Below are positions 29,655-37,957 of a stretch of DNA of 37,957 nt, piece after piece; the first letter of the stretch is position 1, and every line of letters starts with the position of its first letter. The stretch is from an uncultured Actinomycetes bacterium (GTDB lineage Bacteria; Actinomycetota; Actinomycetes; S36-B12): contig CAIKZY010000170.1 of the NCBI GenBank assembly GCA_903832025.1, forward strand, positions 1 through 37,957. The letters run 5' to 3'. The position numbers and the translations under genes were made by a program. The notes under the pieces were generated by a model. That model did not search any database. It was not told the origin of the DNA and saw nothing but the letters and a program-made list of their open reading frames with translations.

Positions 29655-31349
29655 CTACACGTGTATCCCCGCACCGATGTCCGGCGAGAGCCCGGCACAG
29701 GCCAACCGACATAACCCGAATGCCACGGCATATCGGTGCCCCAAGGTCGCGGCGACGTTGGCTCGGCCGAGACGAGCCCATGGCAGTTGCGAGCGAACCG
29801 CGTCGAACAGCTCACTGTCCGCTGCCGGCCCGCCAACCACCACCACATCCGAGGAATCGCCGGTGTGCACGTGTGCGGCAAGCCGCGCGGCGTTGGAGCC
29901 GAAGACCCGTTCCTTCAGCGACAGGCGCAGGGAGCGCCATTCGCCGCTGGCAATCGTGCGACTGAACGGCAGGTCCCCGGCTGGCCCGGACACCGCAAGC
30001 CAGCCCACTGCCCGTTGCGCGGTCTCGGCGAATCGACGAGTCCCGTCCTCGTCCACGAGCACTGAGGGAGCATCGATGCGGAATGCCGGTCCTCGCTTGA
30101 CCCACTCGGCCATGCCTGAGGAGATATCCAGCAGCTGTGCCGTTGCGGTGGTGACCAGTTCACCAGATCCGGCTCCGGTGCATGTGGTGCCGTCTGGGGT
30201 GATCACGTCAATGGTGCCGCCACCAAGGTCCAGCACCAGCGCATGCTCAGCGGTGCCGGGGGTGGTGATGGCCCCGTGAAATGCGGCCAGCGGCTCACTG
30301 GCGATGAGGCTGACCGAACCATCCCACCACTGCTGGAAGCGTCGCACCGGGTCGATCACGTCGTGGGCATCCAAGGTCGCCAGCGTGATCGGACGTTCGG
30401 TGCGCGCACCCTGACGAATTGCGGCACCGCCCAGGTCTTGCAAGTCCACCAGCCAGGTATCTGAGCACTTGATGTCGCGATCTGGCAGCAGCAGGCCAGC
30501 AATCGTGCCGGGAGGACTGGTGGACAGCTCATCGGCACATTCCCACAGGTCACGTCGGCGACCATCGGCGAACTCCACCAAGGACGCCCTGGACACCCTG
30601 GACGCCGGCGAGTGACGATGTTGGCTCAGGCCAACAGCGGCACACGGCAGGCCCTCGGTGAGTCGGGAGACCCGTGCGGCGAAGTCATGATCAGTGCTCT
30701 GCAATCCAAGGTGTGCAACCAGCCACATCGGATCATTGATGAAGCGTGCAAGCCGTGCATCCGCCGCAACCTCCATGGCCACCAGGTCGCAGGCAAGCAC
30801 GGCCTCGGTCGCCACGGCATCAATGATGGGAAGGGGACGGTCGATCCGGCGGCTGACCAGACGGGCCTCGTCACCGGCCATGAGCACCCCGAGCACGCAG
30901 ATGCCCGACTTAAGCCAGGTGTTCAGCACCGCAGCGGTGTGTACGTAGCCCAGCGGATCGGTCGCGACCGCGATGACTGCGCCATGCCTGGGCGGGTCCT
31001 GGCCGATCGCCACCGGCACGCCGACCCCGGCGCCGCCGCCGGCCGGTGTCGAAGCCCCGGCCGCTACCAGCGTCAAGGGACCGGTATCCACCAGGGGTGC
31101 CGGAAGGGATGCGTTGAAGGTCGTGACCGGTGTTTGCGGGGTGAGCACCACCTGATCGACTTGCACGTTGTGGATGCGCTGCATCCGCATGAGCAATCGT
31201 GCGGCTGCCTTGATCGAGTCATCAGAGCCCTTGGCGCCGCGGGTGCGTCCACGTTCAGCCGCGATGGGCATCGGCATGCCCGATGAGCAATCGGCAATCA
31301 CGATCTCGGTCGTGGAGTTGCCAATGTCGATGCCGGCGATGACGCTCAT
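29655..31349 (-). CDS. Diol/glycerol dehydratase reactivase large subunit (DdrA/PduG-like)
   Basis: MSVIAGIDIGNSTTEIVIA actin-like ATPase start, VLDLGGGTIDVI, VVVGGPAADSELFDAVR; adjacent to dehydratase subunits. Confidence 0.92.
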   Translation of the reverse strand: MSVIAGIDIGNSTTEIVIADCSSGMPMPIAAERGRTRGAKGSDDSIKAAARLLMRMQRIHNVQVDQVVLTPQTPVTTFNASLPAPLVDTGPLTLVAAGASTPAGGGAGVGVPVAIGQDPPRHGAVIAVATDPLGYVHTAAVLNTWLKSGICVLGVLMAGDEARLVSRRIDRPLPIIDAVATEAVLACDLVAMEVAADARLARFINDPMWLVAHLGLQSTDHDFAARVSRLTEGLPCAAVGLSQHRHSPASRVSRASLVEFADGRRRDLWECADELSTSPPGTIAGLLLPDRDIKCSDTWLVDLQDLGGAAIRQGARTERPITLATLDAHDVIDPVRRFQQWWDGSVSLIASEPLAAFHGAITTPGTAEHALVLDLGGGTIDVITPDGTTCTGAGSGELVTTATAQLLDISSGMAEWVKRGPAFRIDAPSVLVDEDGTRRFAETAQRAVGWLAVSGPAGDLPFSRTIASGEWRSLRLSLKERVFGSNAARLAAHVHTGDSSDVVVVGGPAADSELFDAVRSQLPWARLGRANVAATLGHRYAVAFGLCRLACAGLSPDIGAGIHV

Positions 31350-31351
31350 CG

Positions 31352-31720
31352 CTAGTCCTGTCGCAGGAGGCCGCGCTGTGCGTAGATCTGTGCCGCTTCG
31401 GCAACCAGTGCCGCGTTTCGCTGGGCGCCGGCCGCCTTCAGTGCATTCACGATCGTTGCCAATTCCTGCGCGGTGGATCGATGCGGGCGAAGTGCTTCGT
31501 ATATCGCCATCACCTGCTCGTCGGGAAGCGCCGTGAGCTCAGCGGCGCGCAGGAAGTTCTCAGCGAGCTGCTGATTGCCGTACTCAGCAGCCACGTCCGC
31601 CTGTGCGATCAGCGTGTCCGGGTGAATGCGAACATCGTCCAACTGCAATGCACCGGCCCGGACCTGGTCGATCGTGATGTCCGCGGCATTCATCCCGGAC
31701 CATGCGTTGCGGCGACTCAT
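31352..31720 (-). CDS. B12-dependent diol dehydratase small subunit (PduE-like)
   Basis: LPDEQVMAIYEALRPHRSTAQELATIVNAL matches the conserved RP(Y/H)RST motif; coupled to large subunit stop. Confidence 0.9.
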   Translation of the reverse strand: MSRRNAWSGMNAADITIDQVRAGALQLDDVRIHPDTLIAQADVAAEYGNQQLAENFLRAAELTALPDEQVMAIYEALRPHRSTAQELATIVNALKAAGAQRNAALVAEAAQIYAQRGLLRQD

Positions 31721-33945
31721 GGCTGGTCCAACTCCAATTGCTGCGGTGAACTTCCGTCGACGAACTGCCGTTCGATCGCCACCAAGGCCACGACCTTGGT
31801 GTGGTACCTGGCCTCGATTGCCTCGTCGGAATACGGATTGCGCTGCGGTTGAGGCGTCGCGCCTTTGGCATGGCGGCCGGCGTTCAGCCCCAGTTGCCGG
31901 TACGCCGCGCGGTCCAGACTTGGGGCTACTGAGTACAGCTCAAGGTTTGCCAGCGGAGACAGGTCGCGTCGGTGAATGAGTGCGGTTCCTTTGGCTTGCA
32001 ACCCGATGCCGATCCCCGATCCGGACATGCGTGCGGCCTGAAGGCCGATTAGGCCCAGATCAATGGTGTCGGTAAACCGGACAATGCGGCCGACACAGCC
32101 TTCTTCTTCCAAGCCGGCCAGTAATTCGTCCAGCCCCTGATCCACCCCGAGCCCGCACAGGGTTTGCCAGATCGCCTGGCCGGTCGCCGGGGAAACGCCG
32201 ATGACCACGTCCCGTGGGTCGTCACTACGCTGCGCGGGCCCGATCACCGACAGGCGACTATTGGCGTGCTGCAGCTGCCGTGCGGAAATATCCAGGACCG
32301 ATTGCTGCTGCCGAATTGCGTCGATTTGGACTTGCCGCTGCAAGCTGGGTGAGTAGCCGGTTCCAGGCCCGGCGTAATCGTTGGGGTCGGTGATCGCTGA
32401 CAGGACGTGCATGGACTCATCGAAGATGGCGGATGTTTGCAGATAGTCCCCGCTGACACGGGCGATGAGCATGTCCAGCATGCGCTGGGCCTCAATGTCA
32501 TAGCCGGCTTCGTCCAGGGCTGCGATGACGTCCAGCATGGTGACCTTGGTGTCGCGAATCAATCGTGATGCGGTCAGCGGTGTCATCAGATCAGCGTCGG
32601 GTACGTCCTTGCTGCCGGCAGCATCGATCGCCTGGGCCAGCCACTGATCGGTGAAGTCGGCCAGGCCCAAGATCGCATAGACATCGCGCACGGCATGGGC
32701 AGCGCGCTCACGAAGCCGTGCCACTTCGTGTTCGTCGGGAGTGCGCAGCCCGCCGTCCACGCCCCAATCACGCTGCATGGCCAGGTAATCGTCCAGATCC
32801 TCTGCGTTCCACTGGCTGGGGCCGAACATGTTGTCGTAGCGCTGGATGGAGCCAAATCCGGAGCAGATGAAGTCCGTTCCGGCGATGAAGATCGGGTGCG
32901 TGCGCGATGTCCGGCGAACATCGGATTCGCTCATCAGCGCATCATTGCCGGTGCACGATTCCAGTGCGCGCAGCATCACCATCAGGTTCTCGGCCATCAT
33001 CGCCTTGGCGCCACCGGGCACTGATCCGGCGACCGATGCGGAGTCGATCCCCCCGTTTTGCACCCCCTGACTGCCGATCGCTCGTGCGAGGGCGACACAT
33101 CGGGCTTCCAGGTAGAACATCGAGCAGCCTTCGGCAGCTCCCATGAGTGCCTCAGCGCCACCGCCACTGGTCACGCGCATCTTGATACCCCGCGAGGCGT
33201 ATCCGCTGGTCAAGAACGCCTTGGACCACGGGGTGTCATCCCCGTCGATGAAGATCTGCTCAGTTCCGTATAGGGAGACCGTCTCGGCGTAGGAGACCAG
33301 GCCGCGCATGCCCATCTCCAATTCCATGGCCTCTTCCACCGAGCACTGCACCAGCACGCCGGGGGAGCCGACGGCAGCCCCGATGGACACCGCGATGGCA
33401 TTGGACGGTGCATCACCGAGCACCGGCACCGTGGTCTCGATTTCGCGGAATCCGAATGCGGCAGCCAGTGCGGCGTCGGCGGCAAGCAACAAGGGGTCAT
33501 CGGATCGATTGGTGACATGCGCCTGATTGCTCGGTGTCTTTCGGGCACGACACTTGGTGACGGCCATGACCAGTTCGGCCGGGCGAAGCACCGACAGGGC
33601 CTTGGCGAGCTTGGCGGGCGTCATGCCGCCAGCCAGTCGCACGCATTCAGCCCGTGACACACCCGGATCAATCAGCATGTGCGCGTAGGTGGCGTCATCG
33701 ATGGCCATCGCCTCATCTGCCACTGTCAGGTCCAGGCCGTGTCGGGCGATGAATTCATCCACGATGTCAAACTGCGCCTGGTGCTTGCCATCCATGAACA
33801 CAACCCGGCCATCGTCGATGTCCAGGCCGGGCGCCGGATCGTTGGGCGAGTTGAACGCGATCAGGCCCAGGTCTGGATTGACTGCGGCAAAGCCATCCAG
33901 ATTGACCGGCTGCTCGTTCATGAACCGGTAGCGGCCAATGGTCAT
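31717..33945 (-). CDS. B12-dependent diol/glycerol dehydratase, fused large + medium subunits (PduC-PduD-like)
   Basis: PduC motifs PVNLDGF, SPNDP, AHVTN, YGTEQIFIDGDDTPWSKAFL, YASRGIKMR, SMFYLEARC, GTDFICSGFGSIQRYDNMF, NDYAGPGTGY; then PduD motifs DVVIGVSPATG, LEEEGCVGRIVR, RMSGSGIGIGLQAKGTALIHRRDLSPLANLELY, AYRQLGLNAGRHAKGATPQP, all in one ORF. Confidence 0.95.
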   Translation of the reverse strand: MTIGRYRFMNEQPVNLDGFAAVNPDLGLIAFNSPNDPAPGLDIDDGRVVFMDGKHQAQFDIVDEFIARHGLDLTVADEAMAIDDATYAHMLIDPGVSRAECVRLAGGMTPAKLAKALSVLRPAELVMAVTKCRARKTPSNQAHVTNRSDDPLLLAADAALAAAFGFREIETTVPVLGDAPSNAIAVSIGAAVGSPGVLVQCSVEEAMELEMGMRGLVSYAETVSLYGTEQIFIDGDDTPWSKAFLTSGYASRGIKMRVTSGGGAEALMGAAEGCSMFYLEARCVALARAIGSQGVQNGGIDSASVAGSVPGGAKAMMAENLMVMLRALESCTGNDALMSESDVRRTSRTHPIFIAGTDFICSGFGSIQRYDNMFGPSQWNAEDLDDYLAMQRDWGVDGGLRTPDEHEVARLRERAAHAVRDVYAILGLADFTDQWLAQAIDAAGSKDVPDADLMTPLTASRLIRDTKVTMLDVIAALDEAGYDIEAQRMLDMLIARVSGDYLQTSAIFDESMHVLSAITDPNDYAGPGTGYSPSLQRQVQIDAIRQQQSVLDISARQLQHANSRLSVIGPAQRSDDPRDVVIGVSPATGQAIWQTLCGLGVDQGLDELLAGLEEEGCVGRIVRFTDTIDLGLIGLQAARMSGSGIGIGLQAKGTALIHRRDLSPLANLELYSVAPSLDRAAYRQLGLNAGRHAKGATPQPQRNPYSDEAIEARYHTKVVALVAIERQFVDGSSPQQLELDQP

Positions 33946-34379
33946 CAGGACTGCCGCGCGATCTCGAAGACTGCTGCTGCAGCAGCAGCAATGGCAGCAT
34001 CTTGTTCGGCCGATCCGCCGGAGACTCCAACGCCAGCAACAACCCTGTCCTGGTCCCACAGCGGCAGTCCGCCGGCGAATGCGATGTATCGGCCGTGATC
34101 GGCGGTGTTCATGCCTGCCAAATCTGCACCTGGAGCGACCAATGCGGTCAGCTCGGCCGTGGCGATGCGGTGGGCCACGGCGGTGAAGGCCTTATCCACT
34201 GCCAGGACAGGCCCGGCAATCTCGGCTCCGTCCATGCGGGCAAAGGCAATCAAATGGCCGCCGGCATCGACCACCGCAATTGAGACATGGGCATGCACGG
34301 GTTCGGCTGCTGCTCGCGCAGCGGCGATCATGGCGTGCGCCAGGTCCAGGTCAATCTCAAATCGCTCTACGCGCGCCAT
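33945..34379 (-). CDS. GlcG/HbpS/PduO C-terminal-like (DUF336) protein
   Basis: AHVSIAVVDAGGHLIAFARMDGAEIAGPVLAVDKAFTA...IAFAGGLPLWDQDRVVAGVGVSGGSAEQDAAIA. Confidence 0.92.
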   Translation of the reverse strand: MARVERFEIDLDLAHAMIAAARAAAEPVHAHVSIAVVDAGGHLIAFARMDGAEIAGPVLAVDKAFTAVAHRIATAELTALVAPGADLAGMNTADHGRYIAFAGGLPLWDQDRVVAGVGVSGGSAEQDAAIAAAAAAVFEIARQS

Positions 34380-35377
34380 GCGGCCGCCTTTCGTCGCATG
34401 TGATCATGCATGCCTGCGGCCGCGACCGCGCCGCGCAGGTGCGCCTTGGCGATCTTGCACACCACGGTGTAATTCGTGTCGACGACATTGGCAATCGGGG
34501 TCAAGGCGGTTTGGGACACGAATTGGTAGGAGTCCAAAGTCGACTGTCCGGTCAGTTCGGCGATCCACAGCACCATCTGCTGGTGCGCGATGCGAAAGGC
34601 GTCCTCCAAGGGACGAGCCGAGCCGGTGGTCATGATGAAGTCATCGGATTCCAGCCTCGGCCAGGAAATCGGGGCTCCGGCAACCACGTCCAGCATGAAG
34701 ACAGTGTCCATCTCGCATTCCACGGCCACGCCGCAGGTTTCACCTTCGCCCTGGCGGGCATGCCCGTCGCCGAGGCTGAACAACGCTCCGGGGACGTGCA
34801 CCGGCAGGTAACAGGTCACGCCGGCGCGCATTTCCGGGGTATCCATGTTGCCGCCCCAGTCACCGGGAGTCAGCGATGAGCGCACTTCGCCCAGCGGCGG
34901 TGCCACGCCAACCGTGCCATGCATCGGGTCCAGTGGCAGGGCGGCGGTGAAGTCGGTGTCAGCTGCGGCATAGCGAACCAGCCGTTCGACCAGATCCAGC
35001 TCGTAGATCCAGGTTCGCTCGGTCAGCGCCGAATGCAGCATCGCGGTGGTCGGGGTGGCGGTCAGCGAGCCGAAGAACGGAACTGTGCTGGAAACGCCCC
35101 AGCCCTGGCGCGGTTCGATCGAGACAAAGTGCACTGCCAAGGTGTCGCCCGGGTTGGCTCCTTCCACATAGAAGGGACCGGATTGGGGATTGAGCATGCG
35201 CGGATCGCAGACCTGCGAGGCCATGTCAGTGGTGGCTCGCACACGCCCGCCAAAGCAGTCCATCGTCCAGGTGGAGATGATCTGACCGGGGCGAACCTGG
35301 ACAGCTGGCTCCACGCCACCGAAGGTGTAGGTGTACGTCGCCGGATCCGCATCCGGGTCTGGGCCCCAATTCAGCAC
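34367..35377 (-). CDS. Acetamidase/formamidase family protein (possibly N-terminally truncated)
   Basis: LNPQSGPFYVEGANPGDTLAVHFVSIEP, DPMHGTVGVAPPLGE, GDWGGNMDTPEMRAGVTCYLPVHVPGALFSLGDGHARQGEGE. Only a GTG start at 35377; in-frame TGA 7 codons upstream. Confidence 0.88.
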   Translation of the reverse strand: MLNWGPDPDADPATYTYTFGGVEPAVQVRPGQIISTWTMDCFGGRVRATTDMASQVCDPRMLNPQSGPFYVEGANPGDTLAVHFVSIEPRQGWGVSSTVPFFGSLTATPTTAMLHSALTERTWIYELDLVERLVRYAAADTDFTAALPLDPMHGTVGVAPPLGEVRSSLTPGDWGGNMDTPEMRAGVTCYLPVHVPGALFSLGDGHARQGEGETCGVAVECEMDTVFMLDVVAGAPISWPRLESDDFIMTTGSARPLEDAFRIAHQQMVLWIAELTGQSTLDSYQFVSQTALTPIANVVDTNYTVVCKIAKAHLRGAVAAAGMHDHMRRKAAAWRA

Positions 35378-35757
35378 TTGGCTGCATCGCGGCGATCAAG
35401 GCCCTGGAAATCTGCTCGCGCACCGAAACGCGATCGATGGTGCACTACATCGCCGACCGCATCGGGCGCGGATTGCGCGACATCATGGCCACGTATCCGG
35501 ACTGGTTCACCGGCATTCGCCAGAACGGGGTGATCTTCGGCCTGGAATTCAACGACCCGCAAGGCGCAAAGCTGGTCATGAAGCACCTGTATGAGAACGG
35601 GGTCTGGGCCATCTTCTCCACGCTGGATCCACAGGTCCTGCAGTTCAAGCCCGGCATCCTGCTCAAGCCCGAAGTCGCCGATGAGCTGCTGGATCGCACC
35701 GAGGTCGCCATTGGCCGTGCCGCACGTGAGGCTGCTGCGAATCGGGGTCGGCGATGA
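35377..35757 (+). pseudogene. C-terminal fragment of class III aminotransferase-fold enzyme (aminotransferase or phospho-lyase)
   Basis: Open frame ...LGCIAAIKALEICSRTETRSMVHYIADRIGRGLRDIMATYPDWFTGIRQNGVIFGLEF...GILLKPEVADELLDRTEVAIGRA. Homology-like sequence starts at the NPLxC-equivalent position. The N-terminal about 300 residues (including the PLP-lysine region) are absent. Confidence 0.82.
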
Positions 35758-37346
35758 CGATCACGAGTATCGATATTCCGATCGAGCCGTCCGGAGTTGC
35801 CCGTGGTCGGGCCATGGTCGAACGCGCGCAGTGGGCCGCAAAGGCCTTCGCCACCTACGACATCGACACCGTGCGCCGCATCGCCAAGGCCGCGGCCATG
35901 GCTGGCGAAGCGGTCGCGGGCCAACTGGGCAAGGATGCGGTGGCCGAAACCGGCTTCGGGGTTGCCGAGCACAAGCTGCTGAAGAATGTCGCCTGCTCCA
36001 TTGGCATCTGGAATACCTACGCCGACCAGGATTTCGTATCGCCGCACGTGGACGAGCAGGCCAAGCTGGTGTCACTGCCTCGACCGGCAGGAGTGATCTT
36101 CGCGCTCACCCCATCCACCAATCCGGTGGCAACGGTCTTCTTCAACATCATGCTGGCACTGCTCACCCGCAACACCATCATCATCTCCCCGCACCCATTC
36201 GCGGCCACCTGCAGTGTCGAGGCCGCGCGCATCATGGCCGAAGCAGCGGTGGCAGCCGGTGCCCCTGATGGCTGTGTGCAGTTCGTGGAGACGCCATCGC
36301 TCCCGCTGATCAGTGCCCTGATGCAGGATCCTCGCGTGGACGTGATCGTCGCCACTGGCGGCACGCCAATGGTGCGATCGGCCTACCGCAGCGGCAATCC
36401 CGCACTGGGGGTGGGGCCGGGCAACGTGCCGGTCCTGGTCGATGCCAGCGCACGACTGACCGATACTGCTGCGCGCCTGGTCGCCAGTAAGAGCTTCGAC
36501 AACTCCATCCTGTGCACCAATGAGTCGGTGCTCATCGCCGAGGCGGAGATTGTCGAACCACTGACCGCGGCGATGAAGCGTGAAGGCGCGGTGTTCTTGG
36601 ACGCCGAGCAGACCGCGGCCGTCAAGGCCACGATCTTCGACGGGGATCACTTCAACACGGCCTGGGTCGGCAAGTCCGCCGTGGCCATCGCCGCAGCAGC
36701 GGGCATCACCGTGCCGGCAGCCACCAAGATCCTGGTCGCCCCGTTCGATCTGGTCGTTCCGGAAGAAATGCTGGCCCACGAAAAGCTCTGCCCGGTCCTG
36801 GGCATGGTCAGCGTGCCCACCGCAGCACGCGGCATCGAAGTGGCCCGGGCCGTCCTGCGTATCGCCGGGGCGGGGCATAGCGCGGCGATCCACTCCACCG
36901 ATGCCCGCACGATCATGGCGTTCAGCACGCAGGTCCCGGTCTTGCGTGTCAGCGTCAATGTGGGCAACTCCCTGGGAAGCTCGGGGATCGAAACCAACCT
37001 GGCCCCATCGATGACCATCGGCACCGGCTTTGCTGGAGGCTCCTCGCTGGGGGCCAACTTGCGGCCCGATCACCTCGTGAACCACACGGTGATTGCCTAC
37101 AACGCCGACGCATCAGTGCCCATGGCTGACTTCGCCGGGATTCAGGCGTGGGAGCCGCCAATCGGCCATACCCCTGCGTACCCGTATGCGTCCAACCTTC
37201 CCCAGGCTGCGCAGTTGCGGGCCCAGGAGACCGGTATCGCGCCGCCGGCTTCGAATTCGGTCCGCTACGACGATGGCACCGATGAGATCCGTGATGAGAT
37301 CCGTCGCATGGTCATTGAAGAACTTCGACAGATTCTCAAGGGATGA
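35754..37346 (+). CDS. CoA-acylating aldehyde dehydrogenase, microcompartment-associated (PduP/RMM-type)
   Basis: GVIFALTPSTNPVATVFFN, ISPHPFA, VIVATGGTPMVRSAYRSGNPALGVGPGNVPVLVD, FDNSILCTNES (catalytic Cys); C-terminal amphipathic tail DEIRDEIRRMVIEELRQILKG. Confidence 0.93.
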   Translation: MTITSIDIPIEPSGVARGRAMVERAQWAAKAFATYDIDTVRRIAKAAAMAGEAVAGQLGKDAVAETGFGVAEHKLLKNVACSIGIWNTYADQDFVSPHVDEQAKLVSLPRPAGVIFALTPSTNPVATVFFNIMLALLTRNTIIISPHPFAATCSVEAARIMAEAAVAAGAPDGCVQFVETPSLPLISALMQDPRVDVIVATGGTPMVRSAYRSGNPALGVGPGNVPVLVDASARLTDTAARLVASKSFDNSILCTNESVLIAEAEIVEPLTAAMKREGAVFLDAEQTAAVKATIFDGDHFNTAWVGKSAVAIAAAAGITVPAATKILVAPFDLVVPEEMLAHEKLCPVLGMVSVPTAARGIEVARAVLRIAGAGHSAAIHSTDARTIMAFSTQVPVLRVSVNVGNSLGSSGIETNLAPSMTIGTGFAGGSSLGANLRPDHLVNHTVIAYNADASVPMADFAGIQAWEPPIGHTPAYPYASNLPQAAQLRAQETGIAPPASNSVRYDDGTDEIRDEIRRMVIEELRQILKG

Positions 37347-37951
37347 CCATGGCTGAACTTCGCTCGTTCATCTTCTTGGACCGTCTGCAGCCGCAGACGT
37401 TGAGCTACTTGGGTACGTGGATCAAGGGCGCGCTGCCGCGGATGGGCGATGCCTCGCAGATCATCGAAGTGGCTCCGGGACTGGACATCGAGCCGCTGAC
37501 CGATGTTGCCCTCAAGCACGCCCACGTGTCTGCCGGCATCTTGATCGTGGAACGGCAATACGGATACCTGGAGATCCACGGCTCACCCAGCGCCGTCCGC
37601 AGCGCGGCAGATGCGGTGCTGCAGTCGCTGGACGCATCCGCGGACAGTGCCACACGGCCGCAAATCCTGGCATCGCGCATCGTGCCTCGGTTGGATCGTC
37701 AGCACGCGTTCTTGATCAACCGCAACAAGGCCGGTTCGATGGCATTGCCCGGTGAGTCAATGTTCGTCCTGGAAATGCAGCCGGCTAGTTATGCCATCCT
37801 GGCAACCAACGAAGCCGAGAAGGCCGCGAACATCAAGGTGGTCGACTATCGGATGATCGGTGCGACCGGACGTGTGTATCTCACCGGTGCCGAATCCGAG
37901 GTGCGCGCTGCCGCCGAGGCAGCCGAAGCTGCCCTGAGGAGCGTGCGCTAG
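37343..37951 (+). CDS. Tandem-domain bacterial microcompartment shell protein (BMC-T)
   Basis: About 200 aa with two alpha/beta repeats: ...ALKHAHVSAGILIVERQYGYLEIHGSPSAVRSAADAVL... and ...MFVLEMQPASYAILATNEAEKAANIKVVDYRMIGATGRVYLTGAESEVRAAAEAAEAAL; immediately downstream of ALDH with start overlapping the ALDH stop. Confidence 0.88.
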   Translation: MTMAELRSFIFLDRLQPQTLSYLGTWIKGALPRMGDASQIIEVAPGLDIEPLTDVALKHAHVSAGILIVERQYGYLEIHGSPSAVRSAADAVLQSLDASADSATRPQILASRIVPRLDRQHAFLINRNKAGSMALPGESMFVLEMQPASYAILATNEAEKAANIKVVDYRMIGATGRVYLTGAESEVRAAAEAAEAALRSVR

Positions 37952-37957
37952 CCATGA

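Follow-up and report, generated by a model that had tools for sequence, protein, structure and literature searches.

An RMM2-type microcompartment locus of an uncultured actinobacterium, with a diol dehydratase that may serve the same aldehyde dehydrogenase as an aminopropanol pathway

The 37,957-nucleotide stretch of actinobacterial DNA analysed here (the window) carries at its right end genes of a microcompartment (BMC) locus, which is a new example of the published RMM2 (Rhodococcus and Mycobacterium Microcompartment 2) type and not a new kind of system. Judged by sequence, the genes of the locus are those of RMM2 and are ordered and oriented as in that type, an AdoCbl-dependent dehydratase operon facing an aminopropanol shell operon. 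It is probably best explained as an RMM2-type locus whose two parts lie on separate contigs of one actinobacterial MAG and in which two inputs would converge on one toxic aldehyde, propionaldehyde, used by an encapsulated aldehyde dehydrogenase (ALDH). RMM2 was defined as an RMM1 locus to which diol dehydratase genes are added on the opposite strand (Axen et al. 2014, PMC4207490), and both types were retained by Sutter et al. 2021 (PMC8217296). A preliminary description of the window, in which a B12 diol dehydratase module was joined to an RMM-type BMC module, is right on this point and agrees with the gene set and order of intact relatives. Its term "unusual hybrid" has to be given up, as the arrangement had been described as RMM2 by Axen et al. 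2014 (PMC4207490), who preferred to regard the dehydratase as unused by the BMC and already proposed a bifunctional locus as the alternative. The interpretation offered there is, overall, partly supported; a flow of aldehyde from the dehydratase to the same encapsulated ALDH is what we infer.

The window is one complete contig of a 2.2-Mb genome in 187 contigs, which is 98% complete. Every gene named in the preliminary description is present where it had been placed and in that orientation, and chance is excluded for the gene identities by Pfam E-values ranging from 3e-228 (PduC) to 2e-7 (the aminotransferase fragment). The minus strand encodes a DdrA/PduG-like large subunit of a diol dehydratase reactivase (29655–31349; 564 aa; Pfam DDR 4e-35, DDR_swiveling 5e-14; 3e-46 against TIGR04491, which is under the model cut-off), the dehydratase small subunit PduE (31352–31720; 122 aa; Dehydratase_SU 1.6e-35) and a natural PduC-PduD fusion of ~742 aa (31717 to ~33945; LU 3e-228, MU 2e-24), an AdoCbl-dependent diol/glycerol dehydratase whose reading frame is open to 34059 and whose start is placed at ~33945 by homology. 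Also on this strand are an HbpS/GlcG/PduO-C-like protein (33945–34379; HbpS-like 2e-32), which adjoins the dehydratase in most relatives and is likely a cofactor accessory, and an acetamidase/formamidase family protein (FmdA/AmdA; 34367–35377; FmdA_AmdA 1.7e-26) with 68–81% identity among relatives. An acetamidase homologue (L045) occurs in a genome without the dehydratase large subunit (G025), and this protein can thus be found apart from the BMC locus. Conjugation-type genes, comprising a T4SS coupling protein on the minus strand and a TrwC relaxase/helicase on the plus strand, occupy the left contig end (3–4301), ~25 kb away from the BMC genes. The BMC locus is absent from the two same-genus genomes searched.

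The fused PduC-PduD is 74–80% identical to nine relatives and aligns end to end with the glycerol dehydratase of K. pneumoniae. All seven catalytic residues, which we take to be Gln141, His143, Glu170, Glu221, Gln296, Asp335 and Ser362 in the numbering of Klebsiella diol dehydratase, are identical in this alignment. Enzymes of the diol/glycerol dehydratase family accept 1,2-propanediol and glycerol, and diol dehydratase converts 1,2-propanediol to propionaldehyde. The window genome contains genes for a cobalamin adenosyltransferase and methylmalonyl-CoA mutase, and no DdrB partner was detected in it or in the relatives searched.

On the plus strand, the window encodes the C-terminal remnant of a class-III aminotransferase-fold enzyme (35377–35757; Pfam match 2e-7), a putative aminopropanol-phosphate phospho-lyase, followed by a BMC-type acylating ALDH (35754–37346; Aldedh 1.5e-20), for which acylating acetaldehyde dehydrogenases give the best NCBIfam matches, each under cut-off, and a BMC-T shell protein of the CcmP-like double-pore (dp) kind (37343–37951; BMC 1.6e-12; 1.7e-63 against the NCBIfam CcmP model, also under cut-off). 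The last four bases (37954–37957, plus strand) are assigned to the next gene, coding for a ~150-aa protein, by the gene order of intact relatives and the reading frames. As the start codon of this gene forms the end of the window and contig C40 of the same MAG begins ~10–15 codons inside it, the two contigs very probably adjoin, with a gap estimated at 30–45 bases. The gene continues on C40 (L003, 4968–5390, minus strand) and is followed by BMC-P, BMC-H, a second BMC-T, an APH-family kinase, an SDR and GntR, and intact relatives show the same succession immediately after BMC-T; the second BMC-T is a paralogue of that in the window and likewise a sub-cut-off match of CcmP type. The shell, kinase and regulator genes that the preliminary description proposed to seek to the right of the window are all on C40. 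Over the two contigs the RMM2 shell set is complete (BMC-H, BMC-P and two BMC-T(dp)), and the aminopropanol set comprises ALDH in the window and APH, SDR and GntR on C40, with the aminotransferase reduced to a remnant and the permease missing, both of which are present in relatives.

The ~150-aa conserved protein, encoded between the first BMC-T and BMC-P, carries an N-terminal amphipathic peptide (alignment A2) and is present in the shell loci examined for it, while it was undetected in shell-less loci. It matches no Pfam family and no PDB sequence, and its structural model has a low pTM and no significant fold match. Its tail shows a weak similarity to PduM (20.8% probability), to be taken as a lead only.

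Comparison with relatives places a junction at 35376–35380, where ~2.8 kb coding for an amino-acid permease and the N-terminus of the aminotransferase is missing. In relatives, the acetamidase and aminotransferase matches lie ~2.8 kb apart, the interval coding for the permease and the first two thirds of the aminotransferase, and PduC and BMC-T are separated by 6.1–6.5 kb in most of them against 3.4 kb in the window. The aminotransferase fragment reported earlier is present, though it has to be redefined as a C-terminal remnant of an enzyme that is intact in most relatives: it corresponds to residues ~320–448 of a 448-aa relative (82% match) and lacks the PLP lysine, residue 285 by alignment. 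The acetamidase is short of a few N-terminal residues at the junction, as judged by comparison of starts. The missing 2.8 kb is most likely an assembly collapse, which is preferred over a real deletion. With a real deletion, the permease and aminotransferase would be gone and only the dehydratase would feed the compartment, so that an RMM shell would serve a reduced pathway resembling PDU; this reading concerns the window copy only and is compatible with RMM2 as the best explanation for the locus type. We consider it rather unlikely, even though the contig runs across the junction without Ns and no other copy of the permease or of the aminotransferase N-terminus was found elsewhere in the window genome despite its completeness, since twelve other genomes with the locus have a near full-length aminotransferase and the first residues of the acetamidase are lost at the very same point. 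In addition, G014 (C44/C195) and G031 (C188/C141) lose the same permease/aminotransferase interval at plain contig ends, so that the stretch seems to be assembly-fragile.

In a survey of 166 genomes from the order, 33 have the dehydratase large subunit and 39 have an RMM-type BMC-T; both occur in 32 genomes, the dehydratase only in one, BMC-T only in seven and neither in 126 (Fisher p = 3e-26, relatedness among genomes being ignored). The dehydratase-only genome (G016) has a contig end inside ALDH, five of the seven BMC-T-only genomes are 63–86% complete, and the other two have only a distant (39–40%) BMC-T. The two genes lie 3–6.5 kb apart in 21 genomes of the order, including that of the window, and the contiguity of the two halves, on which the preliminary description depended, is borne out by their position side by side in many independent genomes. 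That unrelated halves were joined by misassembly, as the broken gene pair at the junction might suggest, has practically no chance of being correct and is refuted by synteny: in 20 other genomes of the order a single contig carries both halves, within 3.4–6.5 kb of each other, and named isolates such as Nocardioides islandensis, Microtetraspora fusca and Kineosporia have them together on large contigs.

A scan of named genomes gave 80 loci, and in those with enough flank the dehydratase mostly adjoins aminopropanol genes. The linked loci show three arrangements, with the dehydratase head-to-head, in the same direction behind GntR, or convergent, and linkage kept in all three argues for selection and not inertia. 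On a quick tree of the fused dehydratase, with SH-aLRT support only, the arrangement changed at least two times and the presence of the shell at least four times, both being minimum parsimony counts. Eight linked loci (L102, L109, L115, L117, L120, L124, L126 and L138), which between them represent all three arrangements, keep the dehydratase, aminotransferase, kinase, SDR and GntR, but RMM shell genes are not recognisable among these genes or next to them, and the BMC ALDH is absent from most of the eight. The shell has apparently been lost or gained repeatedly among linked loci, and as the linkage is kept in loci that have no shell and mostly no BMC ALDH either, a supply of aldehyde to the encapsulated ALDH cannot fully account for it. 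The tree also has nine mycobacterial and related loci in which the dehydratase has no recognised aminopropanol genes within 10 kb. L117 and L126 have a possible ALDH remnant at the aminotransferase end, which is too weak to use, and L097 was dropped as a shell-less locus because its aminotransferase runs into the sequence end.

The ALDH of the window ends in a C-terminal encapsulation peptide, DEIRRMVIEELRQILKG. An amphipathic peptide at this position is conserved in all of the 21 shell-bearing loci examined, a figure that measures conservation and not discovery, as the peptide profile was built from the same ALDHs with leave-one-out, and it is absent from the sole shell-less locus with a matching ALDH. 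The peptide scan gave 0/21 for PduCD and 0/21 for PduE at a limited sensitivity, since in the positive control (the K. pneumoniae pdu operon) the PduD peptide was found and those of PduE and PduP were missed. Independently of the scan, the shortness of PduE and of the PduC-PduD linker indicates that the regions holding the peptides in PDU systems are missing here. The window PduE has no N-terminal extension of the kind that bears the encapsulation peptide in PDU-type PduE (122 aa versus 174 aa in Klebsiella, with the match covering positions 58–173 of the 174-position NF011972), and the PduC and PduD parts are joined by a linker of ~20 residues. The dehydratase probably works outside the shell, or enters it without PDU-type peptides.

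The locus resembles described RMM2 loci in its permease-to-GntR synteny, with the aminotransferase, ALDH, shell genes, APH, SDR, GntR and an opposite-strand dehydratase, and in having no phosphotransacylase or alcohol dehydrogenase, as judged by the gene order of intact relatives. It differs from them in that an acetamidase and an HbpS-like gene lie inside the dehydratase operon, whereas the RMM1 hydrolases are absent from RMM2 according to Axen et al. 2014 (PMC4207490), in being distributed over an order whose members are uncultured actinobacteria, mostly from fresh water, and, for the window copy, in being on two contigs with 2.8 kb missing. The aminopropanol module and shell genes are shared with RMM1 (also called Aaum or Aut), the BMC of M. 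smegmatis and R. erythropolis for using aminoacetone or 1-amino-2-propanol. RMM1 has no diol dehydratase genes; their presence on the opposite strand within the locus is the feature that separates RMM2 from RMM1. As in the PDU systems of Klebsiella and Salmonella, an AdoCbl diol dehydratase, a DdrA-type reactivase and an aldehyde dehydrogenase are found beside BMC shell genes, but PduC and PduD are fused here, PduD/PduE targeting extensions and DdrB are lacking, no PduL, PduQ or PduA/B/J/K/T/U set is present (by the gene order of relatives), and the shell and ALDH are of RMM type. Short medium and small subunits also occur in dha-type (non-BMC) glycerol dehydratase operons, such as operon L147 of a Klebsiella oxytoca plasmid; that operon, however, lacks shell genes and encodes a 1,3-propanediol dehydrogenase and a dihydroxyacetone kinase. 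What is added here to the published type are the three arrangements, the shell-less loci with dehydratase and aminopropanol genes, and the contrast between a shell-linked ALDH peptide and a dehydratase without PDU-type extensions.

In the proposed mechanism, the SDR, the kinase and the aminotransferase-fold phospho-lyase would convert aminoacetone or 1-amino-2-propanol to propionaldehyde, 1,2-propanediol would yield the same aldehyde through the dehydratase, and the encapsulated acylating ALDH would convert it to propionyl-CoA. Work on M. smegmatis is reportedly the basis for assigning the kinase and phospho-lyase steps. Such a dual-input mechanism is plausible, and we infer its steps beyond the identification of the genes. 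According to works cited in PMC6620236, aminopropanol induces the cluster and a dehydrogenase of the cluster has been characterised; RMM has been proposed to lead from aminoacetone to propionyl-CoA (PMC8156839). An experimental hint from Paracoccus yeei is conflicting, as this species, which has RMM2, grows on 1,2-propanediol (PMC8156839), while its genome report describes no pdu operon and growth on 1,2-propanediol via pyruvate (PMC5773746).

Tentatively, the conserved unit may be a two-input propionaldehyde module for which the shell is optional, and where a shell is present, the ALDH would be enclosed by its peptide and the dehydratase would deliver the aldehyde from outside. In PDU, unlike in such a layout, the signature enzyme is inside the shell. 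The dehydratase could also be a neighbour without a role in the compartment, i.e. a separate cytosolic operon for propanediol (or glycerol) that travels with an aminopropanol BMC. Its position on the opposite strand in a separate transcript, the missing PDU-type targeting extensions, and the dehydratase-only mycobacterial loci and linked shell-less loci in other actinobacteria are consistent with this, and Axen et al. 2014 (PMC4207490) preferred it, yet the linkage survives at least two arrangement changes on the tree, the two genes co-occur almost perfectly in the order, and the product expected from the enzyme family, propionaldehyde, is the proposed substrate of the BMC ALDH, so that we give this reading a small share of probability. 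More improbable still is a serial pathway, in which the aminopropanol branch would yield lactaldehyde and then 1,2-propanediol, to be converted by the dehydratase to propionaldehyde (the second scenario of PMC6620236). It would explain why the dehydratase is kept with the aminotransferase, APH, SDR and GntR even without a shell, and the step from lactaldehyde to propanediol has been published as a scenario, but its own authors called it "not very likely" (PMC6620236), RMM1 loci have no dehydratase, and a kinase for (S)-1-amino-2-propanol, characterised from the M. smegmatis system, better fits a route by phosphorylation and phospho-lyase.

The survey makes the question of 2014, whether RMM2 compartments use their dehydratase, testable, as it names culturable species for the head-to-head and convergent shell arrangements and for linked shell-less loci, and it gives a concrete prediction of where the dehydratase is located. 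It also documents RMM2 in an order that is probably Candidatus Nanopelagicales, for which no paper on microcompartments was found in the open-access literature searched. No relative of the fused dehydratase at ≥60% identity was found on plasmids, and in the plasmid matches H3 (Shinella) and H5 (Agrobacterium) PduC and PduD are in one piece, as one annotated gene, so the fusion seems to occur also in Rhizobiales. Four copies of the locus (L072, L073, L084 and L125) are on contigs titled Bifidobacterium breve, which look like mislabelled MAGs; on the tree, L072 and L125 fall together with the copies from uncultured actinobacteria.
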